Source of the DNA: a virus | Direction: 5' to 3' (one strand) | Length of the DNA: 38,922 nucleotides | IMG/VR virus record: IMGVR_UViG_3300025879_000003 | Span: 1-38,922 of that record | Shown here: positions 13,479 through 38,922 of the stretch, one piece after another | How the letters are laid out: each line of letters begins with the position of its first letter | How positions within the stretch are numbered: the first letter of the stretch is position 1 | Made by a program: the position numbers and the translations under genes | The notes under the pieces: generated by a model | Database searches by the model: none | What the model was told of the DNA's origin: nothing | The model's input: only the letters and a program-made list of their open reading frames with translations

Positions 13479-14153
13479 ATGATTGACAATAAAATAAAAG
13501 TAGGCGAGGGCAGTGTTGCGCTCGTTGATGTGATGGGCTCAGCGTTGAGCGTGGTCAATGCTGCGCGAGTATCGATGGGCAAGCGCTCCGAGAGCTTTGA
13601 TGCGCGTGACGCCAAGCTGATCAAATATCTTTGGGAGCATGGTCACACCTCGCCCTTTCGTCATGTGCACCTTCAGTTTCACATCAAAGCGCCCATCTTT
13701 GTTTTGCGCCAATGGATGAAGCACCAGGTGGGCTGCGCGTGGAATGAGATCAGCGGTCGATATGTTGAGCTTGATGAGAGCTTTTGGAGTCCTCACTTGT
13801 GGCGTGAGCAGAGCGCGAGCGTGAAACAGGGAAGCGGTGGAGCTCTTGAGCAGAGCGGTCAGATTGATGCTCACTTTGTGTATGTCGAGGCGATCAACGC
13901 CGCTGTCGCCACTTATCAGCGCTTGCTCCAGATGGGAGTCTGCAAAGAGCAGGCGCGCGCTGTGCTCCCTGTTGCCACCATGAGCGAGTGTTATTGGACT
14001 TGCTCGCTTCATGCGCTCATTCACTTCTTACGCCAGCGCCTTGATGGTCATGCTCAGCAGGAGATCAGAGAGTACGCTCAAGCGGTGAGCGAACTTGCCG
14101 AGGGCGTTGAGGGCTTGAGCTTCATCTTGGGGACTTGCCTTGATCGATTATGA
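13479..14153 (+). CDS. thyX: Flavin-dependent thymidylate synthase
   Basis: A 224-residue ThyX, which makes dTMP from dUMP using methylene-tetrahydrofolate, FAD and NADPH. Visible family features: NAARVSMGK near 28-35, HGHTSPFRH at 54-62, FHIKAPIFVLRQW at 67-79, NEISGRY at 89-95, then RAVLPV, and HFLRQRLDGHAQQEIREYA near the end. The classic RHR-x7/8-S signature appears here as KHQ-x8-S (residues 81-92), with both arginines replaced. The gene starts the plus-strand block, with AGG at 7 bases before the ATG. The dCMP deaminase that supplies dUMP follows. Confidence 0.92.
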   Translation: MIDNKIKVGEGSVALVDVMGSALSVVNAARVSMGKRSESFDARDAKLIKYLWEHGHTSPFRHVHLQFHIKAPIFVLRQWMKHQVGCAWNEISGRYVELDESFWSPHLWREQSASVKQGSGGALEQSGQIDAHFVYVEAINAAVATYQRLLQMGVCKEQARAVLPVATMSECYWTCSLHALIHFLRQRLDGHAQQEIREYAQAVSELAEGVEGLSFILGTCLDRL

Positions 14154-14219
14154 TCTCACTGACTTTGTAAGGTTCATGCTTTTATTACTGATTATGCGCT
14201 TGGCGTTTGAGGTGATGTC

Positions 14220-14702
14220 ATGAGGGCGCACTGGGTGAAGCATTGGATGCGTCACGCTGAGCTGATCGCTGAGATGAGCCCTTGCCCCCGAGGGCAGGTT
14301 GGGGCGTTTATCGTTGACGAGCGAAACAACCCAATCAGCGCAGGCTTCAACGGCCCACCGAGAGGAGCCTGCGGTGATCTGTGTGGTGGTGAGGTGTGCG
14401 ACAGAACAGCGCGCGCCATACCATCAGGCACATCAACGGAGATAGGCTGTCACCACGCAGAGCAGAACGCCTTGATGAACGCACTTCACAAAGGCGTGAG
14501 TGTGGCGGGTTGCACTTTGGTGGTGACTACGCCGCCCTGCTTGGGCTGTGCTCGCCTCATACATCACGCAGGCATTGAGCGCGTGGTGATCGGTGGGCGC
14601 TCGTATGACTCACAGGGAGCTGATTACCTTGAGAGGTTTATCGCTTTACGTCAGGGTGTCTCTTGTAGCGTGAGCGAGCAGTCTCAGGATTACAGTTCAT
14701 GA
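14220..14702 (+). CDS. Deoxycytidylate (dCMP) deaminase
   Basis: A 160-residue zinc-dependent deaminase that turns dCMP into dUMP, the substrate of the thyX product encoded just upstream. The zinc site is visible: His79-Ala-Glu81 (CHHAEQNAL) and Cys107-x2-Cys110 (TPPCLGCARLIHHAGI). CPRGQVGAFIV near 22-32 and GFNGPPRGA at 42-50 are typical of phage and T4-like dCMP deaminases. The insert with extra cysteines (CGDLCGGEVC, 51-60) is also common in the family. The start has GAGG 7 bases before the ATG. The 3' end overlaps the convergent helix-turn-helix gene by 65 bases. Confidence 0.92.
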   Translation: MRAHWVKHWMRHAELIAEMSPCPRGQVGAFIVDERNNPISAGFNGPPRGACGDLCGGEVCDRTARAIPSGTSTEIGCHHAEQNALMNALHKGVSVAGCTLVVTTPPCLGCARLIHHAGIERVVIGGRSYDSQGADYLERFIALRQGVSCSVSEQSQDYSS

Positions 14703-15101: not shown

Positions 15102-16001
15102 TCAGCTCCACCCATCATTGATCTGAGGTCTACGATCACGCCCGATCATCTCTACAGGGCGCCCGAACATTGAGCGCATACGCGATCTCATAGCGCTGTT
15201 GTTCTCCAGGAGGTTCTCAAGGATCACCTTGGGCTTGAGGTTGGTGGTCATACAGACCGCAAGCTCACCCGCGCTCCACCTGTCATATATCGCGCCAATC
15301 AGCTCGCGTGTTTGGTCTCGGTACCAATCACCCCAATCAGAGCCAGAGCCACCGATCCCGCCAAGCTCATCGAGGCAGAGCAGATCGATGTTGTTGAGGA
15401 TATGAGTCTCAGGCTCGACAGGATTTGGGCGATCAGCCCGACCCCATGAAGCCTTGATGTCAGCGAACAAGCCCTCATGTGTGATGAACAGAGCGCGCTT
15501 GCGAGAGAAGCAGGCATGCTTGGCGAGGATATGAAGCATGGAGCTTTTGCCGTTGCCTGGCTTGCCGTGAAGCAACACACAAGGGAGCTGAGGAAGGTCT
15601 GTGTTCTTGGGTGCGTGAATGTAGTTGAGGAGCGCGCCCACCGCCTCACGCTGAGCTGGGCTGTCCCACTCATAGGTGGCGAGCGTGTGCTTGTGAGCGA
15701 CATAGGGCAGGCGCGCCGCTTCGATACGCTTGAGGGCTCGGCGTGGGGCTTCACAGTGAGGGCAGAGCTTTGAGGAGGGCGCGAGCCCTTGCGCTGCCCT
15801 CGGAGTGATCAGCCAACCATCTTGGCATCGACCGCAGTGAGGCAGAGGTGAGGAGGCCAAGAAGCCGTTGACCGAGCGCCACTCTGAGGTGGGGAAGTTC
15901 TCGGCATTGATGCCAGCGTAGCTTGGCGCGAGCTCCTGCTTGGGGCTCTCGATGACCTCAACTTGGTCAAGGTTGATGGTGTTGGTGGTGAGGGTGTTCA
16001 T
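15102..16001 (-). CDS. Helicase loader (DnaC/IstB-like AAA+ ATPase)
   Basis: About 299 residues from ATG 16001, which has GGAG 9 bases upstream; ATG 16016 directly follows the previous stop but lacks a ribosome site. Cys56-x2-Cys59 and Cys80-x2-Cys83 form a zinc ribbon as in DnaC/DnaI-type loaders. The AAA+ part has Walker A GKPGNGKS (146-153), Walker B LLCLDELGG (Asp211/Glu212), a CMTTNL sensor-1 segment and a C-terminal MRSRMRSMFGRPVEM (box VII/sensor 2). It should load the host DnaB-type helicase at the origin, together with the initiator encoded just upstream (lambda O/P logic). Confidence 0.85.
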   Translation of the reverse strand: MNTLTTNTINLDQVEVIESPKQELAPSYAGINAENFPTSEWRSVNGFLASSPLPHCGRCQDGWLITPRAAQGLAPSSKLCPHCEAPRRALKRIEAARLPYVAHKHTLATYEWDSPAQREAVGALLNYIHAPKNTDLPQLPCVLLHGKPGNGKSSMLHILAKHACFSRKRALFITHEGLFADIKASWGRADRPNPVEPETHILNNIDLLCLDELGGIGGSGSDWGDWYRDQTRELIGAIYDRWSAGELAVCMTTNLKPKVILENLLENNSAMRSRMRSMFGRPVEMIGRDRRPQINDGWS

Positions 16002-16016
16002 CGTCAGTGTCTCCAT
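15994..16016 (-). promoter_or_regulatory. Shared translation leader, copy at the helicase loader
   Basis: On the minus strand GGAGACACTGACG precedes ATGAACACC. It is nearly the same as the leader and start of the sigma-like gene at 12915-12939, including the first codons. It decides the start codon at 16001. Confidence 0.5.
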
Positions 16017-16814
16017 TTAACGTCTTATGAGGCTCTGAGGCGCTCTTTGTGTGTTGGCGAGATGCTCGATATAGGTCACGATTGAAGCGGGCGATATACG
16101 CAAATTGTGAGCTTGTTGAGCAAGGACTGCATCATGCTCATTAAGGGCGAGCCTTATATCCATCCGACCCTTGAAGCGAGCCACCTCATCAATCTTTTGT
16201 CTATAAACAAATAAAGAGCCCATGTCTTCACTCGGAGCGATGAGCCTACAGCCTGCTTGAAGCGCCGCGCGCCTCTCAGCCTCAAGCGAGTCCTCGCGCG
16301 TGGGGTTAGGCTCTACCTCTGGCTCAGCGTGTTGATTATGAGGTTGATTAATCTGTTGATCTATTAGTTGATCATTAAGTTGATAAGAGTTGATATTGGG
16401 TGCATAAAATTCCCCACCCCTAGGAACTTTGTTCACTACCCGTTGGGAACTTTGTTCACCATCGTTAGGAACTTTGTTCACTACCCGTTGGGAACTTTGT
16501 TCACCATATTGGGAACTTTGTTCACTACCCCCCTCAACCTTAGAGGTGAGCAAGGTAAAGGCTGCTTTATGGTGAAGGCCGTTCTCACGCCTCTGGGCTG
16601 TTCGCTTGATCCAACCTTCAGCTGATAAACGCTTGAGGCTGTTCTTCACACCTCGGTCACTCATGGCGGTGAGCTCTGCGAGATCGTTGACTGACGCGAC
16701 TCCCTGCCATGTCTGCCAATCTGCGCGCATGAGCAAGGCCATCATCACGACCTTATCTCCTGCGGTGAGGTTGGTATCTCGGAGAGCGGCGGCCCTCCAG
16801 TTCATCTCTTTCAT
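16017..16814 (-). CDS. Replication initiator, lambda O-like, with the origin inside the gene
   Basis: About 265 residues from ATG 16814, chosen for the GAGGGAG 5 bases upstream; the longer open frame begins at a TTG without a site. Residues 10-70 form a winged helix (LTAGDKVVMMALLMR, then VNDLAELTAMSDRGVKNSLKRLSAEGWIKR) as in phage replisome organisers. Residues about 95-135 are a repeated linker (GEQSSQRVVNKVP units) and about 135-160 are Asn/Gln-rich (INSYQLNDQLIDQQINQ). These two parts are encoded by the iterons and the AT-rich repeats of the origin. The C-terminus likely binds the helicase loader encoded next. The overall plan matches lambda O. Confidence 0.8.
   Translation of the reverse strand: MKEMNWRAAALRDTNLTAGDKVVMMALLMRADWQTWQGVASVNDLAELTAMSDRGVKNSLKRLSAEGWIKRTAQRRENGLHHKAAFTLLTSKVEGGSEQSSQYGEQSSQRVVNKVPNDGEQSSQRVVNKVPRGGEFYAPNINSYQLNDQLIDQQINQPHNQHAEPEVEPNPTREDSLEAERRAALQAGCRLIAPSEDMGSLFVYRQKIDEVARFKGRMDIRLALNEHDAVLAQQAHNLRISPASIVTYIEHLANTQRAPQSLIRR
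16331..16394. repeat. Six AT-rich 12-mers: probable DNA unwinding element
   Basis: GTTGAT occurs at 16331, 16343, 16355, 16367, 16379 and 16389, a spacing of 12, 12, 12, 12 and 10 bases. Each copy is followed by an AT-rich hexamer, making the block clearly richer in A+T than its surroundings. It lies about 30 bases from the iteron array. Tandem AT-rich 12- or 13-mers next to iterons are the standard layout of a replication unwinding region. Confidence 0.7.
16421..16525. repeat. Five-iteron array: probable phage replication origin
   Basis: The 14-mer GGAACTTTGTTCAC occurs five times without mismatch, at 16423-16436, 16446-16459, 16468-16481, 16491-16504 and 16512-16525. The start-to-start spacing is 21-23 bases, about two helical turns, so all copies face one side of the DNA. 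Each 14-mer contains the dyad GAAC-TTT-GTTC. Copies 1-2 and 3-4 belong to a tandem 45-base repeat (16421-16465 and 16466-16510). The array lies inside the initiator gene, as in lambda ori inside gene O. Confidence 0.8.
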
Positions 16815-16986
16815 AAGGTCTCCCTCGGTTGTGGTGGTGAGCTCGAACCTACACGCGAGCGCTCTAAAGATCAAGCTCTCTTTGTAGTCTCTTAATCTTT
16901 TTTATTCTCTGTGTGAAAAAAAACTTGACGCCACAGATCAAGCGAGCTATCAAGGTTGCATCACCACCAACCAAAGGAGGTCAGAC
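16815..16986. promoter_or_regulatory. Divergent control region between the initiator and the early regulator
   Basis: This 172-base gap separates the minus-strand replication block from the plus-strand early block. It contains A/T-rich runs (16888-16924), the plus-strand promoter at 16925-16953 and the AAAGGAGG site at 16973-16980. No minus-strand promoter could be assigned confidently. Confidence 0.5.
16925..16953 (+). promoter_or_regulatory. Sigma-70-like promoter of the plus-strand early block
   Basis: TTGACG (16925-16930), a 17-base spacer and TATCAA (16948-16953) give 5/6 and 4/6 matches to consensus at ideal spacing. CTTGA (16924-16928) and TCAAG (16938-16942, repeated at 16950-16954) form a small dyad over the promoter. 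That could be an operator for the helix-turn-helix protein encoded directly downstream. AAAGGAGG at 16973-16980 then precedes the first ATG. Confidence 0.6.
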
Positions 16987-17202
16987 ATGACCCTCAAGGA
17001 TCGCCTCAAGCGCGACCTTGGCAAGCATCGATACAGGTTCGTTCACTTGGCAGAGGAAGCAGGCATCTCACCCTCAACTCTCAGCCGCATCTTAGGTGGA
17101 CAAGACACCTCGATCAGAACAGCCACCAAGCTAGCCAGAGCCGCCAATCGCCTCACAGGCCTCAAGACTTATACCCCCTTAGACTTCTTCACTGACCTTT
17201 AA
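16987..17202 (+). CDS. Cro/CI-type helix-turn-helix regulator
   Basis: A 71-residue basic DNA-binding protein. The helix-turn-helix covers about residues 18-50 (RFVHLAEEAGISPSTLSRILGGQDTSIRTATKLARAAN), a typical lambda-repressor-like domain without any extra domain. It is the first gene after the strong early promoter and has the best ribosome site of the block (AAAGGAGG, 6 bases). The dyad over the promoter suggests that it represses its own transcription. No partner repressor or integrase is visible, so a lytic early/late regulator is more likely than a lysogeny repressor. Confidence 0.75.
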   Translation: MTLKDRLKRDLGKHRYRFVHLAEEAGISPSTLSRILGGQDTSIRTATKLARAANRLTGLKTYTPLDFFTDL

Positions 17203-18616: not shown

Positions 18617-18729
18617 GACATCAGCAGGTAGAGCACCCCACCTGCGATCACCACAAGCACCCAATCGCCCAGCTCCTCAACAATAGGATCGAGGGCGAGC
18701 AAGCATAAGATCAGAGCGATATAGAGCAT
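18613..18729 (-). CDS. 38-residue hydrophobic peptide
   Basis: ATG at 18729 to TAG at 18613-18615, just under the usual gene-size cutoff. It starts 19 bases inside the end of the nrdJ gene, with GGGGGG about 4 bases upstream. It has two hydrophobic stretches (MLYIALILCLLALDP, and WVLVVIAGGVLYLLMS) separated by an acidic turn (IVEELGD), so it may form a membrane hairpin. It ends exactly against the stop of the convergent RecT-like gene. Possible roles include a small lysis or membrane-stress factor. It fills the otherwise empty gap at the convergence point. Confidence 0.5.
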   Translation of the reverse strand: MLYIALILCLLALDPIVEELGDWVLVVIAGGVLYLLMS

Positions 18730-20714
18730 TGACCCCCCGAACAAGCGGGCTCAAGCTGAGCATCAAAATAATCGCTCTTGATGTTGCTGAGGTCAACGCC
18801 CGACCAATCGAGTGAGGCGAGCTTAAGCCAAAGCTCCTCAGCGGGTGCGCCCTCCTCAACGGTCTGATAAGGCGCTTGATCATAGGCGCTATCACCGAAC
18901 CAACCGAGGAGCGCCACGCCGCGCAGCTTGTCTCGGTTCTCATAGATGAAGGTGGCAACATCTCCCCACTCGTCATCTTTCACTGTGCATGTGTTGGAGA
19001 CGTTGTGAGTGAGGCCCTCAACGCGAGTAGGCTCAGAGCCCGGTGCCACCCAGTGCTGATAGACGAGCTTGACGCGAGTGAGGTGAGCGAGCGCGCTGTC
19101 AGTCTCTCGCGTGAGTGAGCCCTCGGGCGCAGCGCAAGCGAAAGCTACCACGCCTGTGTGCTCATCGAGGTCGGTGAGAGCATCGGGTACATGAGCCTCG
19201 AGCACAGACCATACAGGGTTGACCTTAGCCACCCTCATGCGCCTGATGTAGCGCTGAGCATGGAAAGGGTGAACGCCTGCGCTAGTACCTGCGATGGTGG
19301 AGGTGTTGCCCGATGGCTTGATTGTGGTCACGCGCGAGGCAGTCTTGATGCCGATCTTAGCGGCGGTATGTTGATTGACCTCAACGCAGAGGCGCGCGCC
19401 CTCCTCCAAGACCTCTGGGTCAAAGAGTAGATCGGGAGCTGCACACATGCCTGTAATGCTCACACCGATGAGCGCCTCCTGCTCCAAGATCATCTTGGTG
19501 GTGCGGGTGAGGTAGCCTTGATTGGTGTAACCCGCTTGGAGGGTGCCGATGTGAGCCGCCGCACAACAAGCCTCAAAGAAGTCCTCCTTGCTCTTGATGA
19601 GAGCGCCGTTGATCTCGGTGAGGTTGCACACAGCCCAACCACTTTGGAACAGATAGCCCTTGCTCTCAAGCGCCTCACGCTTACGCAGCATGTCGAGCGT
19701 GATCTCTTTGATTTGCTGACCATGAGGCGTGGTGATGGTGTAAGGGAATAGACCAATCTCCGCGCATGGGTTAGTGCCATGATGAGGATCAGCGAAGAAC
19801 GCCACCCCAGGCTCACCCCACGCCTTAGCCATCTCCACCACCTCATCAACTACTTGGCGCCCCACATCGAGCCCCACCCCTGCGCTGATGTTGGCGTATG
19901 CGCGTTGTGGGTTATGCTTCCACCAATCGCCCACCTTAGCTTTCATCATGAGCTCATCAGTCTCGTCAAAGATAGCGATGCTTGCGCTACGCCTCACGCC
20001 ACCACTGAGCACAGCCTCGGAGAGGAACATCACAATGTCGAAGGCATCAACCGAGCGCAGGCGCGCTTGACCATCAGCGATGCACCGATCAAGGAGCGCT
20101 CTGATCTTCTCAAGCGCAGTCTCAAGAGGCCCACTACCTGGAGCTTTCCCACCGCTTGAGATGTCTGCGCCCTTTGGCCTGATCGATGAGTAATCAAAAC
20201 GGATATGGCGGTAGTCCTCGTAATACCCTCGATGAAGATAGCTATCGATGAGGCTCTGAGCTGCGCGCGCCCACCCCTCAATGCTGTCTGGGATAAGCAC
20301 CTCATGCACCAAGCGGCGCTCAGCCTCTTTGGGTGTGAGGAGGCGAGGAAGGCGAGCGATGTCAGCGCCCCTCACTGAGAAGCCTGTGCCACAGCCACTG
20401 AGGAGAAGCCAGAACGCCTCAGAGAAGAAGCGGGAGCGATCACAGGGCGAGTAGGTGCAGTTGTAAATCCTCATGTTATTGCGCTCGATGGGAGCCCCAC
20501 CAAACTGAGTAGAGCGCTGAGAGGGGAACACGCGCTTCTCTCTGACGAGCTTGAAGGCGCGCTGTGTCTCACCGACCACTTGAGGGAAGCGTTTGAGGTG
20601 CATGGCCTCAACACGATTGACAGCATGAGCCCAAGTCTCACGACCCTCGCCGCCAGGTAAGGGTCGGGCATATTGAGCGGCGAAAGCCACCTCTCCAAGG
20701 ATATGATTTTGCAT
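18711..20714 (-). CDS. nrdJ: Adenosylcobalamin-dependent ribonucleotide reductase (class II)
   Basis: About 667 residues from ATG 20714 (GGAG 7 bases before); ATG 20741 is in frame but its site is too close. It resembles the monomeric Lactobacillus leichmannii-type ribonucleoside-triphosphate reductase. Key residues (short-form numbering): Cys86 in RIYNCTYSPC; the radical-site motif NPCAEIGL with Cys317 and Glu319; Cys363 in AVCNLTEI as redox partner of Cys86; and the C-terminal CSGGQC (Cys658/Cys663), which re-reduces the active site. It needs vitamin B12 from the host and works without oxygen. It sits at the end of the late block, not with thyX. It is somewhat shorter than the L. leichmannii enzyme (739). 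Confidence 0.93.
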   Translation of the reverse strand: MQNHILGEVAFAAQYARPLPGGEGRETWAHAVNRVEAMHLKRFPQVVGETQRAFKLVREKRVFPSQRSTQFGGAPIERNNMRIYNCTYSPCDRSRFFSEAFWLLLSGCGTGFSVRGADIARLPRLLTPKEAERRLVHEVLIPDSIEGWARAAQSLIDSYLHRGYYEDYRHIRFDYSSIRPKGADISSGGKAPGSGPLETALEKIRALLDRCIADGQARLRSVDAFDIVMFLSEAVLSGGVRRSASIAIFDETDELMMKAKVGDWWKHNPQRAYANISAGVGLDVGRQVVDEVVEMAKAWGEPGVAFFADPHHGTNPCAEIGLFPYTITTPHGQQIKEITLDMLRKREALESKGYLFQSGWAVCNLTEINGALIKSKEDFFEACCAAAHIGTLQAGYTNQGYLTRTTKMILEQEALIGVSITGMCAAPDLLFDPEVLEEGARLCVEVNQHTAAKIGIKTASRVTTIKPSGNTSTIAGTSAGVHPFHAQRYIRRMRVAKVNPVWSVLEAHVPDALTDLDEHTGVVAFACAAPEGSLTRETDSALAHLTRVKLVYQHWVAPGSEPTRVEGLTHNVSNTCTVKDDEWGDVATFIYENRDKLRGVALLGWFGDSAYDQAPYQTVEEGAPAEELWLKLASLDWSGVDLSNIKSDYFDAQLEPACSGGQCSISL

Positions 20715-20779
20715 GACAGGTCTCCGAGAGGCGAGCGTCATGCTCCCCTCTAAGATGGGGTTAAGTTAGGGTGAAGCGC

Positions 20780-23120: not shown

Positions 23121-26100
23121 TCAGATCACATACCAAGATGTGCCATCACTGACAATCGTAGCCGAGGCGTTTTGAAAGCCTAAGACCAAGCCTGAGACTC
23201 CATCAATAGTGTCGTTAATTGTGATCTCATTAGCGCTTAGGTTTTTGATGTTGTATTTATAACCACTACCAGAAGCGCTCGCTGTGGGAAGCGACACAGT
23301 GCAGTTCACACTCGGCGTGAGCAGGTAAATCTCCTCAATGCCCTCATGTGTGGTGATCGCGTAGGTTGAGCCAGGTGAGGCGCTCGTGACATTGGGCGCA
23401 GGAGGTGAGAAGGTCTTAGGCTCCCAACGGCTGTTCGTATTGACCCACTGCAAAACCTGATTGTCTGTGGGCGCGCTGGGATAAGCCACATCAGCGAATG
23501 TGTCGAGGTCGAGCGCAGCGAGGTTGCTAGGCACGATGGCGCGATCAGTCGCAGTAGCCGCTTGAGCCTCTGCATCGGTGGCGAGCTCCACGAGGCCAAG
23601 CGTTGTCTCGTCTGCCACAGGAGCAGGAGGAGGGCCTGCCTTAAAGGTCGATGATACGCCGTCGAAGAGGAGGATCTGACCATCGGTCGGTGCCACGGTG
23701 AGGTCAACATCATCAAGGCCATTGAGCCCATCAGCTGCGTTCACTTTCTCGCTGAGACGAGTGTCGATGCCCGCGAGGTGCGAGTCGAGGTCACTCGCGG
23801 CTGCGGTGTAGTCGCTGGCTGTGTGCGCGGTGTCGATGTGCTCACCGCCAAGCGTGAGCGCTCCATCGGTAGGCGTGATCGTATTGACGCTGTTCACCGC
23901 CAAGCCGACCTCGGTGTCGAGCCCTGCCAGGTGTGAGTCAAGGTCAGCGGCGCTCGCTGTGTAGTTCACTGCGGTGTGCGCTGTCTCGATGTCAGCGCCA
24001 CCTAAGACCACAGCGCCATCGGTGGGTGTGAGCGTGTTGACTGTCTTAACTGCCTCACCGTCAAGCGTCGTGAGCGCCGTGTCGAGCGCGCCGAGCTCGT
24101 CGTCGATACCGCCGAGGTGATGGATGACCTTAGTGCCATCGACAGTCGCACCGCGAGTCTCGTCGTAGTTGGTCGCGCTGAAGCTCAGTGAGAGGTCGCC
24201 CAAGTCGCCTGCGTAGAGCTCTTGCTTTGTGGCGTCGTACACAGGGAGCTGACCGTCAGTCGTGAAGGAGCGCGTGTTGAGCTCGATCGACGATGAGAAG
24301 TAGCACCCCCACGCCGGCTGATAGTCCGTCCCACCTTGCGAGTAGTTGAAGCCGAACAGATCGACGGTGGCCTTTGACTCGACGGTGACTTGGCCGTTCA
24401 GCGTGATGTTTTGGCCGACGAGCAGGTGAGCGTTGGTGTCGGCTTGATCGACTTGGATCACGAGCTCACCGAGACCCCAGTTCGTGACGCGGATGTACTC
24501 GCCGTTGTTCGTCACGCTTGGGAGCGTCATCGTCTTGGTCGAGCCTGTCGCCGTACCGATGATGTAATGCTTACCACTCTCAAGGGTCAGCGCGTCGGCG
24601 TCGGTGATGAACGAAGCGCTGTTGATGAACGACGTTGGGGCGTTGCTCAGATCAGCGTAGTCGCCGCTCGTCGCGACCGTCGCAAGGTCGCTTGACAGGA
24701 CGATCTCCGTTGAGTCGGCTGTGAGAGCCGTCGCGCCACCCCCTGCGACGAGGCGACCGCTTGTGCCGTCAATCGAGACGTCGAGCTGACCTGCGCCGAC
24801 CTTGAGCGCGTTGAGATAAGCGTCTTTGGCGCGAGCGCTCGCTGAGCCGATGTCGCGTGTGCTGTTGCCGTCTGGCAAGAACGCTCCGCTCGTCGCGTTG
24901 AGCGACCACTGACCAGCCGCGAAGCCTGCCGAGCCGTCGCTCACTTGGATGACCCCCTCCGCACCTTGCGCCGTTGTGCTCAACGCACTCAGCTCGCTCG
25001 CTACGAAGGCCGTGGTCGCGATCTGCGTTGTGTTCGTGCCTTGTGAGGCTGTTGGCGCTGTCGGCGTACCTGTCAGAGCAGGTGAGGCGATGTTCGCTTT
25101 GAGGGCGAGACCAGAGGCCACAAAAGCGGTGGTCGCGATCTGCGTTGTGTTCGTACCAAGTGAAGCGGTCGGCGCTGTCGGTGTGCCTGTCAGAGCAGGT
25201 GAGGCGATGTTCGCTTTGAGGGCGAGCTCAGTATCAAGCGCCTCATCCGCCTCTTTGAGCGACGTCGCGGTGTCAAGGTAGTTGGTCGCGCCGTTGGCGA
25301 GATACGAGCCATCTTCCTCCAGACCGGCGCCAGTGATGATCGACGCGCTGACAAGCGACTTGCCTTGTAGGCTCGTGTCGATCCCTGCGAGGTGAGAGTC
25401 GAGGTCAGCCGCGCTCGCGGTGTAGCCGACCGCCGTGTGCGCTGTGTCGATGTCTGCACCACCAAGCGCCACATCACCCCCAACAGGCGAGACGCCGTTC
25501 ACTGAGCTCACGCTCGTCGTGCCGAGAGGTGACACCTCAAAGCGCCCATTTGTGGCGGAGTACACAAGCGCGTCACCGTCTGCCAAGCCCGTGAGGTCAA
25601 CGTCACTCATTTGAGCGAGGGAGTCGATCTTGCGTGGGTAGAACACATAGCGGTTCAGTGACCCGCCTACAGTGTGACGATCCATCGCGAAGTAGAGCGT
25701 GGTGCGAGGAGGCACAGTGATGGATGTGATCAGCGCGTCATACTCTGTGGCGGGGTCGCTCTCTAGCTCGCCACCGAAGTACACCTGATAATCTACACCA
25801 TCAATGTTCGCTGTCTGCACACCGAGAGCGATTGTGACATCGTTCGCTGAACGGTTACTCACCGCAAAACCGTTAGCAGCGTTCAACAGTTCCTCCGCGT
25901 CTGTCGCGTCAGGAAGGCTGATTGTGAGCGCGCTTGACCCCATAGGGATCACATACATAGCGTCTGCGTAGTCCGTGCCCACTTGAGACGTGTTGATTGA
26001 GCGCAAAACAAACTCTGCGCTGTGCTTTTGGAGGTTCGTGAACACGTTAGCCGCGAGCACCTCGTCAGCGTTTCGCAGCGATGTAGCCGTGCTGAGTAGG

Positions 26101-28772
26101 TCACCATCAACAGACGGTGCAACGTAGGAGCCATCATCCTCCAAGCCCGCGCCCGTCTGTGTCGCGTTGATCTCCGACTGGTGAGCGGCGAGCGAGGTGG
26201 TCACAGAGCCAAACTGTGTGTCGATCCCTGCGAGGTGTGAGTCGAGGTCAGCGGCGCTTGCGGTGTAGCTCACTGCAGTGTGCGCTGTCTCGATGTCTGC
26301 ACCGCCCAACGTAAGCGCTCCGTCGGTGGGGGTGAGCGTGTTGACGCTGTTCACCGCGAGGCCAAGCTCGGTGTCGATCCCTGCGAGGTGTGAGTCGAGA
26401 TCAGCGGCGCTTGCGGTGTAGCTCACTGCAGTGTGCGCTGTCTCGATGTCCGCGCCACCCAGCGTGATGTTTCCGTCTACGGCGGCGATGTTATTAACCG
26501 TCGCTGTCTCAAGTGTGCCGAGCTTGGTGTCGATCCCTGCGAGGTGAGCTTCGACGTCGGCGCTCGCGCTCGTGTAGTTTGTTGGTGTCGCGACTACGCT
26601 CGCGTCGCTCGCCGCTCCACTTGTTGCGATGTCGGCAAGGTCGGCGCTGTTCGCTTTGTCGGCGAGTCGGCTGTCGATCCCGGCGAGGTGAGCCTCAACG
26701 TCAGCGGTCGCGGCGCTGTACTCGGTGGGCGTGGCTGTGACGCTCGCGTCGCTCGCCGTTCCACTTGTCGCGATGTCGGCAAGATCAGCTGTGTTCGCTT
26801 TGTCGGCGAGTCGCGTATCAATACCTGCGAGGTGCGAGTCGAGGTCAGCCGCGCTCGCTGTGTAGTCGCTTGCGGTGTGCGCTGTCTCGATGTCTGCACC
26901 GCCCAACGTAAGCGCCCCATCGGTGGGTGTGAGCGTGTTGACGCTGTTGACCGCCAAGCCGACCTCGGTGTCGATGCCTGCGAGGTGTGAGTCAAGGTCA
27001 GCCGCCGCCGCTGTGTAGTTTACTGCGGTGTGCGCGGAGTCGATGTCTGCCGCCCCCACAGTCACATCACCAGAGACAGGTGAGATGCCGTTGACTGAGG
27101 CGACGTTGTTCGTGCTGAAGTTATCGACGAGGTCGCGTGTCTCTTTGAGCTTCGCGTCAAGCGCCTCATCTGCTCCCTTGAGCGTTGAGACGGCGCCGAT
27201 GTAGTTAGTCGCGCCGTTGGCGACGTATGAGCCATCAGTCTCAAGCCCTGCACCGCTCTGTGTAGCGTCGAGCTCGGTCTGGAGGCCGTCGATCTCGCCC
27301 TCTGCGGTCGTGAGGCGACCATCGAGCGCCGTGATGTTGCCCTCGTTCGCCGTCACACGCCCATCAAGCGAGCTGATGTCGCCGTCGTTGCTCGTGATCT
27401 GCGTCTGCAAGTTGCCGAGCTCGGTGTCAACACCGCTAAGGTGTGAGTCGAGATCAGCCGCGCTTGCGGTGTAGTTTGAGGCGGTGTGCGCTGTGTCGAT
27501 GTCTGCGCCGCCCACAGTCACGTCGCCAGAGACAGGTGAGACGCCGTTGACCGTCGCGACGCTGTTGGCGCCTAGATTATCGACGATGTCGCGTGTCTCT
27601 TTGAGCTTCTCGTCGAGAAGCGTATCAGCGTCGGCAAGGTTGGTCGCGCTCGCGATGTAGTTTGACGAGCCGTCCACGATGTACGCGCCACCGCTTGTCA
27701 GTCCTGCGCCGCTCTGTGTGGTGTTGACCTCGAACTGAAGGCTCGCGACGCCGTCCGCGTTCAGCTTCACTTGGGCGTCGAGCAACGTATCGGCACCACG
27801 AAGGCTCGTCGCACTCGCGATGTAGTTTGCCGAGGGGGAGTTGATGTACTGCCCACCCGCCGCAAGACCTGCACCGCTCTGTGTAGCGTCGAGCTCGGCT
27901 TGGATGTCGTCGAGCTCGCCCTCGGCGGTCGTGAGACGGCTGTTGAGCGAGCTCAAGCTGTCTCGGTTGACCTTCACTTGATCGTCGAGCAGAGAGTCAG
28001 CCTGCTTGAGCGTTGTCGCGGTGCTGATGTAGGTCGCGGTAGGGTCTGGCGTATAAGAGCCGTTGCTGTTCAAGCCGGCGCTACTCTGTGTCGTCGCTTG
28101 CTCGGTTTGGAGCGTGCCGATCTCGCCCTCTGCGGTTGTGAGCCGGCCGTCGATCGAGCTGATGTCGCCTTCGTTCGTCGTGACACGAGCGGTGAGCGCG
28201 TCGTGGTCGGCTTGCGTGACAGCGTTGAGCACGTCGGCGACCGTCAGCTCACGATTGATCCACTCCTCACCTGTGCCGTCGTACACCAAGACCTGTCCGT
28301 TGGCTTCAGCGTTGATCGCAACGTCGAGCAGATCGGTCAGAACACTGATCGACTCGCTGTTGTCGACCTTCGTGATCGCGTCGTCGTAGTCAGTCTCACC
28401 GCTCGCGATGTCACGAGTCACAACGAGGTGATCGCCGACCGCCCACTCTTGGCCATAGAGCTCTTTTGTGACGTTGGTGTCGGTGGGGTTCAGCTTGACG
28501 TTGGTGACGACGTAATAGTCGCCAGCTTTCGTCGAGCCTGTGGTGAGGTCTGGGACGCCGATGCCGATGTCGTAGGCGCCCTTGAACTCCATGCCGCCTG
28601 TGAGCCCGGCGAGCTCCGCTTGCAGACCTGCCGGCGTGACGGCGATCAGCTCGCTTGTGCCCGCTTGCGCCTCTGCGATGGTGGCGAGGCGCACCTTGCC
28701 AGATGTGGTGGTTGTTGCATTGGGAACAGAGGCAGAGCCTCCGAGAGATGCAGGTCTGATCCTAATCGCCAT
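23121..28772 (-). CDS. Giant repetitive tail fibre
   Basis: A 1,883-residue fibre, by far the largest gene. The N-terminus has a GKVRLATIAEAQAGTSELIAVTP segment, and a related TLGLVELATDAEAQAA occurs near the C-terminus; both are typical of phage fibre collagen-like or trimer modules. A repeated unit of about 50 residues (GGADI-TAHTA--YTASAADLDSHLAGIDT) occurs eight times, with two diverged copies. Six 'TQSGAGL--GGSY--NYI--ATSL--AD-LLD' units and two copies of the 39-residue SPALTGTPTAPTA module, well known from other fibres, are interspersed. Coiled-coil heptads (LTTAEGEIGTLQTE) link them. It would form a long trimeric fibre that binds the host. The start has AAGGGG before ATG. Confidence 0.85.
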   Translation of the reverse strand: MAIRIRPASLGGSASVPNATTTTSGKVRLATIAEAQAGTSELIAVTPAGLQAELAGLTGGMEFKGAYDIGIGVPDLTTGSTKAGDYYVVTNVKLNPTDTNVTKELYGQEWAVGDHLVVTRDIASGETDYDDAITKVDNSESISVLTDLLDVAINAEANGQVLVYDGTGEEWINRELTVADVLNAVTQADHDALTARVTTNEGDISSIDGRLTTAEGEIGTLQTEQATTQSSAGLNSNGSYTPDPTATYISTATTLKQADSLLDDQVKVNRDSLSSLNSRLTTAEGELDDIQAELDATQSGAGLAAGGQYINSPSANYIASATSLRGADTLLDAQVKLNADGVASLQFEVNTTQSGAGLTSGGAYIVDGSSNYIASATNLADADTLLDEKLKETRDIVDNLGANSVATVNGVSPVSGDVTVGGADIDTAHTASNYTASAADLDSHLSGVDTELGNLQTQITSNDGDISSLDGRVTANEGNITALDGRLTTAEGEIDGLQTELDATQSGAGLETDGSYVANGATNYIGAVSTLKGADEALDAKLKETRDLVDNFSTNNVASVNGISPVSGDVTVGAADIDSAHTAVNYTAAAADLDSHLAGIDTEVGLAVNSVNTLTPTDGALTLGGADIETAHTASDYTASAADLDSHLAGIDTRLADKANTADLADIATSGTASDASVTATPTEYSAATADVEAHLAGIDSRLADKANSADLADIATSGAASDASVVATPTNYTSASADVEAHLAGIDTKLGTLETATVNNIAAVDGNITLGGADIETAHTAVSYTASAADLDSHLAGIDTELGLAVNSVNTLTPTDGALTLGGADIETAHTAVSYTASAADLDSHLAGIDTQFGSVTTSLAAHQSEINATQTGAGLEDDGSYVAPSVDGDLLSTATSLRNADEVLAANVFTNLQKHSAEFVLRSINTSQVGTDYADAMYVIPMGSSALTISLPDATDAEELLNAANGFAVSNRSANDVTIALGVQTANIDGVDYQVYFGGELESDPATEYDALITSITVPPRTTLYFAMDRHTVGGSLNRYVFYPRKIDSLAQMSDVDLTGLADGDALVYSATNGRFEVSPLGTTSVSSVNGVSPVGGDVALGGADIDTAHTAVGYTASAADLDSHLAGIDTSLQGKSLVSASIITGAGLEEDGSYLANGATNYLDTATSLKEADEALDTELALKANIASPALTGTPTAPTASLGTNTTQIATTAFVASGLALKANIASPALTGTPTAPTASQGTNTTQIATTAFVASELSALSTTAQGAEGVIQVSDGSAGFAAGQWSLNATSGAFLPDGNSTRDIGSASARAKDAYLNALKVGAGQLDVSIDGTSGRLVAGGGATALTADSTEIVLSSDLATVATSGDYADLSNAPTSFINSASFITDADALTLESGKHYIIGTATGSTKTMTLPSVTNNGEYIRVTNWGLGELVIQVDQADTNAHLLVGQNITLNGQVTVESKATVDLFGFNYSQGGTDYQPAWGCYFSSSIELNTRSFTTDGQLPVYDATKQELYAGDLGDLSLSFSATNYDETRGATVDGTKVIHHLGGIDDELGALDTALTTLDGEAVKTVNTLTPTDGAVVLGGADIETAHTAVNYTASAADLDSHLAGLDTEVGLAVNSVNTITPTDGALTLGGEHIDTAHTASDYTAAASDLDSHLAGIDTRLSEKVNAADGLNGLDDVDLTVAPTDGQILLFDGVSSTFKAGPPPAPVADETTLGLVELATDAEAQAATATDRAIVPSNLAALDLDTFADVAYPSAPTDNQVLQWVNTNSRWEPKTFSPPAPNVTSASPGSTYAITTHEGIEEIYLLTPSVNCTVSLPTASASGSGYKYNIKNLSANEITINDTIDGVSGLVLGFQNASATIVSDGTSWYVI
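24990..25223 (-). repeat. Two tandem 117-base (39-residue) fibre modules
   Basis: Positions 25223-25107 and 25106-24990 encode the same 39-residue module (ALKANIASPALTG..., ending ATTAFVASxL), nearly identical at DNA level. This module type is common in unrelated phage fibres and is thought to spread by recombination. Confidence 0.75.
26221..26526 (-). repeat. Tandem 153-base (51-residue) fibre repeat, recent duplication
   Basis: The stretch beginning at 26221 and the one beginning at 26374 align without gaps at an offset of 153 bases. They are almost identical over at least 75 bases, giving two nearly identical 51-residue units. Other copies of this unit in the same gene are more diverged. 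Confidence 0.65.
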
Positions 28773-38352: not shown

Positions 38353-38855
38353 TTTCCCCGCTGACCTAAGAGGCTCATGCGCTGGATATGCTGCACCAGC
38401 TCTGTGATGACTGCGAGGCGGTGCGCCTCTGGCTTGATCAGGCTGAGCTTACCCTTTGCAGGTTCACCATCAATCAAAGTTAGAGCCGCCTCAACCATCT
38501 CGACAAAGACCTTGTTGAGGTAGCTCTGATACATCGCTAAAGCCTCACGCTCATCTTCTGTGAGATTGTGATGCCAACGCGCCTTCTCACGCTGATCATC
38601 GGGCGCCTCAGTCCACAGCAAGCGCCCAAGCTCAGAGCGAACATAAGCACCCGCCTTAACCTCAGCGCTCTCACGCTCAGCAGGAGAGAGAGCCTTGAGG
38701 GTAAAGATGGTGGCGCCCTCATAGCTCTCAAGCTCATCAAGATCACCTGTGAGCATATAGGCCTTTACTTGATCGGGTGAGGCGATCACCGAAGAATCAC
38801 AAGTGACCACCACCTCAAGCGTCATATCAGCATCGGGCATAAATGAGAGCGCCAT
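38349..38855 (-). CDS. Tail assembly chaperone (G-like)
   Basis: A 168-residue acidic, helical protein between the tail tube candidate (across the circular join) and the tape measure, the fixed place of tail assembly chaperones. The stop (TAG) directly follows the slippery heptamer, as CGG GGA AAA TAG. Residues near 30-45 have VKAYMLTGDLDELESYEG. The longer frameshifted form is expected at low level, and both should coat the tape measure during tail assembly. The start ATG is 4 bases after the tube stop with a poor ribosome site, so translation is probably coupled. Confidence 0.75.
   Translation of the reverse strand: MALSFMPDADMTLEVVVTCDSSVIASPDQVKAYMLTGDLDELESYEGATIFTLKALSPAERESAEVKAGAYVRSELGRLLWTEAPDDQREKARWHHNLTEDEREALAMYQSYLNKVFVEMVEAALTLIDGEPAKGKLSLIKPEAHRLAVITELVQHIQRMSLLGQRGK
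38352..38358 (-). promoter_or_regulatory. -1 programmed frameshift slippery site
   Basis: On the minus strand the heptamer is G_GGA_AAA, with the zero-frame stop TAG directly behind it. After slippage the tRNAs can re-pair with GGG and AAA, and reading continues as ATA GCA CTT. GGGAAAG, a one-base variant, is the lambda G/T slippery site. Confidence 0.75.
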
Positions 38856-38922
38856 ATCTTTAAACCCCCAGAGCCAAACGGACAGGGCTGTTGCCTGCGC
38901 CGCTCTCGCTCACATCACCACC
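38796..38922. repeat. Terminal direct repeat, right copy (assembly overlap)
   Basis: Exact copy of bases 1-127. When the two copies are merged, the stop of the tail tube gene sits 4 bases before the start codon of the 168-residue chaperone gene. That gives one unbroken minus-strand operon across the join. Confidence 0.97.
38860..38922 (-). CDS. Duplicate 3' fragment of the tail tube gene
   Basis: This is the end of the gene found complete at 65-1357, present twice because of the 127-base contig overlap. Its stop is at 38860-38862. It should not be counted separately. Confidence 0.9.
   Translation of the reverse strand, partial: GGDVSESGAGNSPVRLALGV

Follow-up and report, generated by a model that had tools for sequence, protein, structure and literature searches.

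Introduction

In bacteriophage lambda the replication origin lies inside the initiator gene O and comprises four iterons together with an AT-rich region of 39 bp (PMC6022878). The O protein consists of an N-terminal DNA-binding domain and a C-terminal domain which binds the P protein (PMC6022878, PMC7466680). In lambda-P22 hybrids replication genes are swapped (PMC3349717). For the RepA_N initiators of PLE satellites, part of one report describes a DNA-binding domain that covaries with the iterons, a conserved C-terminal domain and repeated exchange (PMC8263062).

The locus described here is located in a stretch of viral DNA of 38,922 nucleotides, the whole of which is referred to as the window. 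The window carries a direct terminal repeat (1-127 and 38796-38922) about 127 bp long, its last 100 bases being those of positions 28-127. Since the end of the window repeats its start, the genome (38.9 kb) is probably complete. Nucleotide-metabolism genes at 13479-14702 and 18711-20741 encode a ThyX-type thymidylate synthase, a dCMP deaminase and a B12-type ribonucleotide reductase. An ORF of 1883 amino acids (23121-28772) contains long tandem repeats at 25012-25226 and 26218-26834 with units of 117, 144 and 153 bp.

The initiator gene and its neighborhood

The gene of a replication initiator occupies positions 16017-16814 on the minus strand. It starts with an ATG at 16812-16814; an alternative TTG start is possible at 16874. 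The encoded protein is composed of a winged-helix domain, a disordered linker whose DNA carries the putative origin, and a C-terminal domain. In comparisons with phage protein families the initiator matched phrog_270 (E = 5e-13) and the 'O-like' family phrog_391 (E = 6e-8) as well as the further 'O-like' initiator families phrog_678 and phrog_8540. By this similarity, which is confined to the winged helix and the linker, the protein belongs to the lambda O family. Among 50,697 named phage records a single weak match was obtained.

The winged-helix DNA-binding domain (16542-16814, minus strand) corresponds to about residues 1-91. In an AlphaFold2 model the first 90 residues showed pLDDT values of mostly 81-95, with one block at 69, and the HTH helices were followed by two wing strands, forming a single winged helix. 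A Foldseek search of the PDB with the model retrieved just generic MarR-like winged helices, and a match to HTH_36 (E = 0.0005) stayed under the curated cut-off. The recognition helix MSDRGVKNSL (16635-16664, minus strand) is numbered h1-h10 in the following, corresponding to residues 51-60, so that h4 is Arg54, h5 is Gly55 and h8 is Asn58; the modelled helix spans residues 53-65. From about residue 96 to 167 the model is disordered, and this same stretch encodes the iterons and the AT-rich block. The C-terminal part (16017-16330, minus strand) is nearly invariant across the switch of iteron type described below. By analogy to lambda O, it is presumed to contact the loader or the helicase.

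The gene of a DnaC-like AAA+ helicase loader (15102-16016, minus strand) begins with the base that directly follows the stop codon of the initiator gene. It matched phrog_50 (E = 3e-23), and no match was found among the 50,697 named phage records. A previous sequence-only reading of this DNA had placed the repeats inside a winged-helix initiator gene with a DnaC-like loader gene next to it, which is borne out by the families phrog_270, phrog_391 and phrog_50. Ahead of the ATPase domain the loader carries two CxxC pairs (CGRC and CPHC), suggesting a zinc ribbon. The region 16815-17202, which consists of an intergenic stretch and a divergent gene for a Cro-like HTH protein (16987-17202), is a possible early switch.

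The iteron array and the AT-rich block

Five exact copies of GGAACTTTGTTCAC start at positions 16423, 16446, 16468, 16491 and 16512 and extend over 16423-16525. Successive starts are 23, 22, 23 and 21 bp apart, as read previously (five perfect copies at a spacing of 21-23 bases). The corresponding dyads have a 6-3-6 layout on the minus strand and are located at 16422-16436 (GTGAAC AAA GTTCCT on the coding strand), 16445-16459, 16467-16481, 16490-16504 and 16511-16525. Their spacing equals about two helical turns. With up to two mismatches allowed, no sixth copy of GGAACTTTGTTCAC was found anywhere in the 38,922-nt window, and a scan of the whole window for dyad arrays detected this array as the sole one. 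Shuffled windows contained a mean of 0.22 copies and never reached five. The iteron DNA is translated in two frames, yielding GEQSSQ and VVNKVP, and the remaining frame would contain a TGA. When this peptide was recoded synonymously 3000 times, no 14-mer exceeded three copies, compared to five in the real sequence. This confirms that the iterons are repeated beyond chance at the DNA level.

An AT-rich block is located at 16331-16400, with no strand assigned. Its six GTTGAT-led repeats start at 16331, 16343, 16355, 16367, 16379 and 16389 and cover 16331-16394. A regular 12-base period had been described for them; six repeats are indeed present and four gaps measure 12 bp, but the last one measures 10 bp. 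Nowhere in the genome are 64 bp richer in AT than these repeats. None of 5000 synonymous recodings was as rich in AT as the block (72%), and 10 of 5000 matched its six copies of ATCAA. From its composition the block is likely an unwinding element. Inspection of the ATCAA repeats by eye revealed no complete IHF consensus site. The window contains no DnaA boxes (TTATNCACA), which are dispensable for lambda-type origins.

Repeats of this kind might also be features of the protein, namely of an Asn/Gln-rich flexible linker, with the DNA repeats as a by-product of slippage or duplication. The linker is disordered in the model, and duplication took part in shaping it, as is evident from a 45-bp higher-order repeat. 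However, one DNA motif encodes unrelated peptides in the two frames used, and the sisters described below retain the spacing while the DNA motif has changed along with the recognition helix. In addition, no synonymous recoding attains the AT content, and nearly all stay below the repeat counts. This explanation is consequently considered extremely improbable. The comparison with recoded sequences supports selection at the DNA level as a force shaping the linker, in agreement with the previous suggestion that origin evolution has done so.

GC skew had been proposed as a check of the origin, and it lent no support. In the window it gives no origin mark; its sense is opposite to the expectation for a bidirectional origin, and the sign flip near 16.5 kb tracks divergent transcription.

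Conservation and exchange of the winged-helix domain and iterons

In the relative L006, whose initiator protein is 86% identical, the five dyads are kept at the same spacing, with a single change in one dyad. The previous reading had named a disappearance of the repeats from close relatives as evidence against an origin; at this distance no such loss is seen. Of that reading, the lambda-like origin is supported by the layout, the genes and L006, whereas the GC skew does not confirm it.

Two sisters, L008 and L013, carry six dyads of the GTGACA-GAT-TGTCAC type, 22-23 bp apart and some of them degenerate. Accordingly, the half-sites differ between the window (GTGAAC) and these sisters (GTGACA). 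Their winged helix has diverged, and their C-terminal part and loader are closely similar to those of the window. In the winged helix and the iterons, informative sites favored the grouping by iteron type 124:1. In the C-terminal part and the loader, 54 informative sites grouped the window with L012 (the L008 contig), 14 followed the iteron type and 5 supported the third grouping. Because of these opposed groupings we conclude that the iterons were exchanged along with the winged-helix domain. By inspection, the downstream breakpoint lies in or just ahead of the AT-rich block; the upstream one is near the start codon. Besides the winged-helix domain and the iterons, the exchangeable cassette would include the AT-rich block, at least in part. 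With domain and sites in one cassette, protein and site would remain matched when the specificity changes. Neither this exchange of a cassette nor the relation of iteron to recognition helix reported below was part of the previous reading.

Survey of initiators

In order to avoid a choice based on DNA, 80 initiators were fetched via a peptide remote from helix and iterons. Seven initiators of earlier fetches were added to the pool, and dyads were called blind to the helix. The non-redundant set comprised 39 protein-selected initiators with less than 65% identity; a broad alignment was too diverse for a column scan. As a control, the dyad caller recovered the four annotated iterons of lambda. 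At least three good dyads were present in 27 of the 39 real representatives compared to 0 of 37 codon-shuffled regions. The AT content after the iterons exceeded that before them in 37 of 37 initiators.

Pairs of GAACTTTGTTC about 22 bp apart were observed in 27 stretches of viral contigs, some of them from one phage group, and in 17 stretches of genome contigs. Many lie inside winged-helix ORFs. A search of related initiators for dyads spaced by about 22 bases had been suggested previously, and the same core was indeed found in many unrelated phage initiators. Papers retrieved by a literature search with the core sequences GAACAAAGTTC and GAACTTTGTTC were all unrelated. Some occurrences differ in context. 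An array of GAACTTTGTTC in L041 (14653-14795), with some copies at 33 bp, has no overlying initiator ORF. The same applies to an identical GAACAAAGTTC pair in L031 (10660-10693) and L057 (4751-4784) (Amphritea atlantica genome; the other is a viral contig). In a Polynucleobacter contig of 122 kb (L048, 2998-4077) scattered GAACAAAGTTC accompanies a winged-helix gene with the helix LTDRAIQKNL, which is either a prophage or a host gene.

Of 118 viral-contig loci with pairs of TGACA-N3-TGTCA, 90 lie outside recognizable winged-helix ORFs; these 90 were excluded from the helix test below, the result of which is valid for winged-helix ORF loci only. That most of these pairs are found outside such ORFs would fit operators, by which the initiator or a neighboring repressor autoregulates the early operon while replication starts elsewhere. 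The two-turn spacing of the dyads suits repressors as well, and the small divergent Cro-like HTH gene could supply one. However, the array is located mid-gene, distant from the promoter, and adjoins the AT-richest DNA of the genome. Moreover, the order of iterons and then AT-rich block is found in 37 of 37 initiators and also at the proven origin of lambda. Operators are thus very unlikely, and the region 16331-16525, judged by its sequence, is almost certainly the replication origin of the phage.

Covariation of recognition helix and iterons

A covariation scan of 80 protein columns against the 6 half-site positions (p) was performed with the 39 representatives. The top-ranked associations were h5-p6 (z = 11.5) and h4-p3 (z = 7.7), and the eight most informative of the 80 columns were all located within the recognition helix. 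Arg at h4 coincided with G at p3 in 10 of 10 initiators compared to 4 of 29 others (p = 1.6e-6). Of 16 initiators with Gly at h5, 15 had C at p6, compared to 1 of 23 others (p = 1e-8). Two further sets were selected by DNA motif alone, using a search model in which the helix was masked; they partially overlap with the sequences of this model and include relatives of the window. Initiators with TGACA-N3-TGTCA arrays showed Arg at h8 in 20 of 20 cases and Gly at h5 in 0 of 20. For GAACAAAGTTC arrays (GAAC dyads) Arg was found at h8 in 0 of 19 and Gly at h5 in 16 of 19. The difference in h8 Arg between the two dyad types is significant (p = 1.5e-11).

Mere shared ancestry, without any recognition rule, would produce associations as well. 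The surveyed initiators are related, and the strict limit of less than 50% identity outside the helix leaves 11 sequences, among which h4-p3 is the sole rule still clear (h4 Arg with p3 G in 4 of 4 compared to 0 of 7, p = 0.003). On the other hand, the columns outside the helix are equally related and less informative, and the DNA-selected sets of divergent initiators concur. Furthermore, helix and iteron have both switched as predicted within one lineage, since Arg54-Gly55 goes with GTGAAC in the window and Arg-Asn..Arg with GTGACA in its sisters. Shared ancestry alone is therefore an unlikely explanation. A recognition rule is probable, according to which Arg at h4 reads G at p3, Gly at h5 goes with C at p6, and Arg at h8 reads CA at p5-6. 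Several helices deviate from it, e.g. Gln-Gly with AAAC or CAAC. Because their own binding sites sit in each gene, the initiators probably constitute a natural library from which the winged-helix recognition code could be derived without recourse to experiments. Neither this rule nor an existing code for phage initiators was found in the open-access literature searched.

The covariation suggests which amino acids of the initiator read which DNA bases. As protein and target are both stated by each gene, DNA-reading rules of winged helices should be inferable from metagenomes. One could then predict the origins of uncultured phages from their protein sequences and trace how origin specificity has been exchanged among phages.

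Proposed mechanism

The best overall explanation, which we regard as very probable, is an origin at 16331-16525 with the initiator on the dyads, unwinding of the AT-rich DNA, hand-over to the loader and an exchangeable cassette. An initiator dimer would bind each of the five 15-bp dyads via the winged helix encoded just upstream. Each dyad would provide two 6-bp half-sites (GTGAAC or near) separated by a 3-bp spacer, and specificity is predicted to reside mainly in Arg54 and Gly55 at the beginning of the recognition helix. The spacing of about two helical turns would let the dimers stack on one face of the DNA. The stacked complex would destabilize the adjoining AT-rich repeats, and the C-terminal domain would hand over to the DnaC-like loader for delivery of the host's replicative helicase. 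The sequence itself displays the anatomy of the locus, its constraint at the DNA level, its conservation, the exchange of the cassette and the covariation of helix with iteron, whereas initiator binding with one dimer per dyad, unwinding, loading and a start of replication at this site are inferred.

Comparison with known systems

The locus has the composition of a lambda-type origin. Several dyad iterons about two turns apart lie inside the initiator gene, with an AT-rich block beside them on the C-terminal side; the protein has an N-terminal winged helix and a flexible linker over the iterons, and a helicase-loader gene follows directly downstream. An origin of the iteron-plasmid type (RepE/Pi) was rejected, as the model has a single winged helix and a TTATNCACA DnaA box is missing. 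The previous reading had also considered a new origin class. This was abandoned because geometry and order are those of lambda ori and because many unrelated initiators share the iteron core. The origin itself thus represents a textbook layout in an unstudied phage, and the wider relation of helix and iteron matters more.

In lambda, too, the origin lies within the initiator gene with the helicase-loading gene next to it, four dyad iterons are spaced by 20, 24 and 23 bp in a 6-3-6 layout with a central AAA, and the AT-rich block lies toward the C-terminal side of the iterons. In contrast, the window has five iterons instead of four, repeated 12-mers in its AT-rich block, and a DnaC-like AAA+ loader in place of P. 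Iteron sequence and recognition helix are unrelated to those of lambda, as had been noted before for the iterons. Binding sites of the initiator are likewise annotated within gene 15 of phi80, and an origin is annotated by similarity in gene 18 of P22; their iteron sequences differ, and the phi80 spacer seems about 1 bp longer. The PLE satellites, which belong to Vibrio, differ in their intergenic iterons of about 30 bp, and the account in that part of the report contains no amino acid-base rule (PMC8263062). A similar covariation analysis correlating proteins and sites is described, in part of another report, for MerR-type transcription factors (PMC5045206). There the sites came from comparative prediction of regulator binding, whereas here each gene contributes its own.
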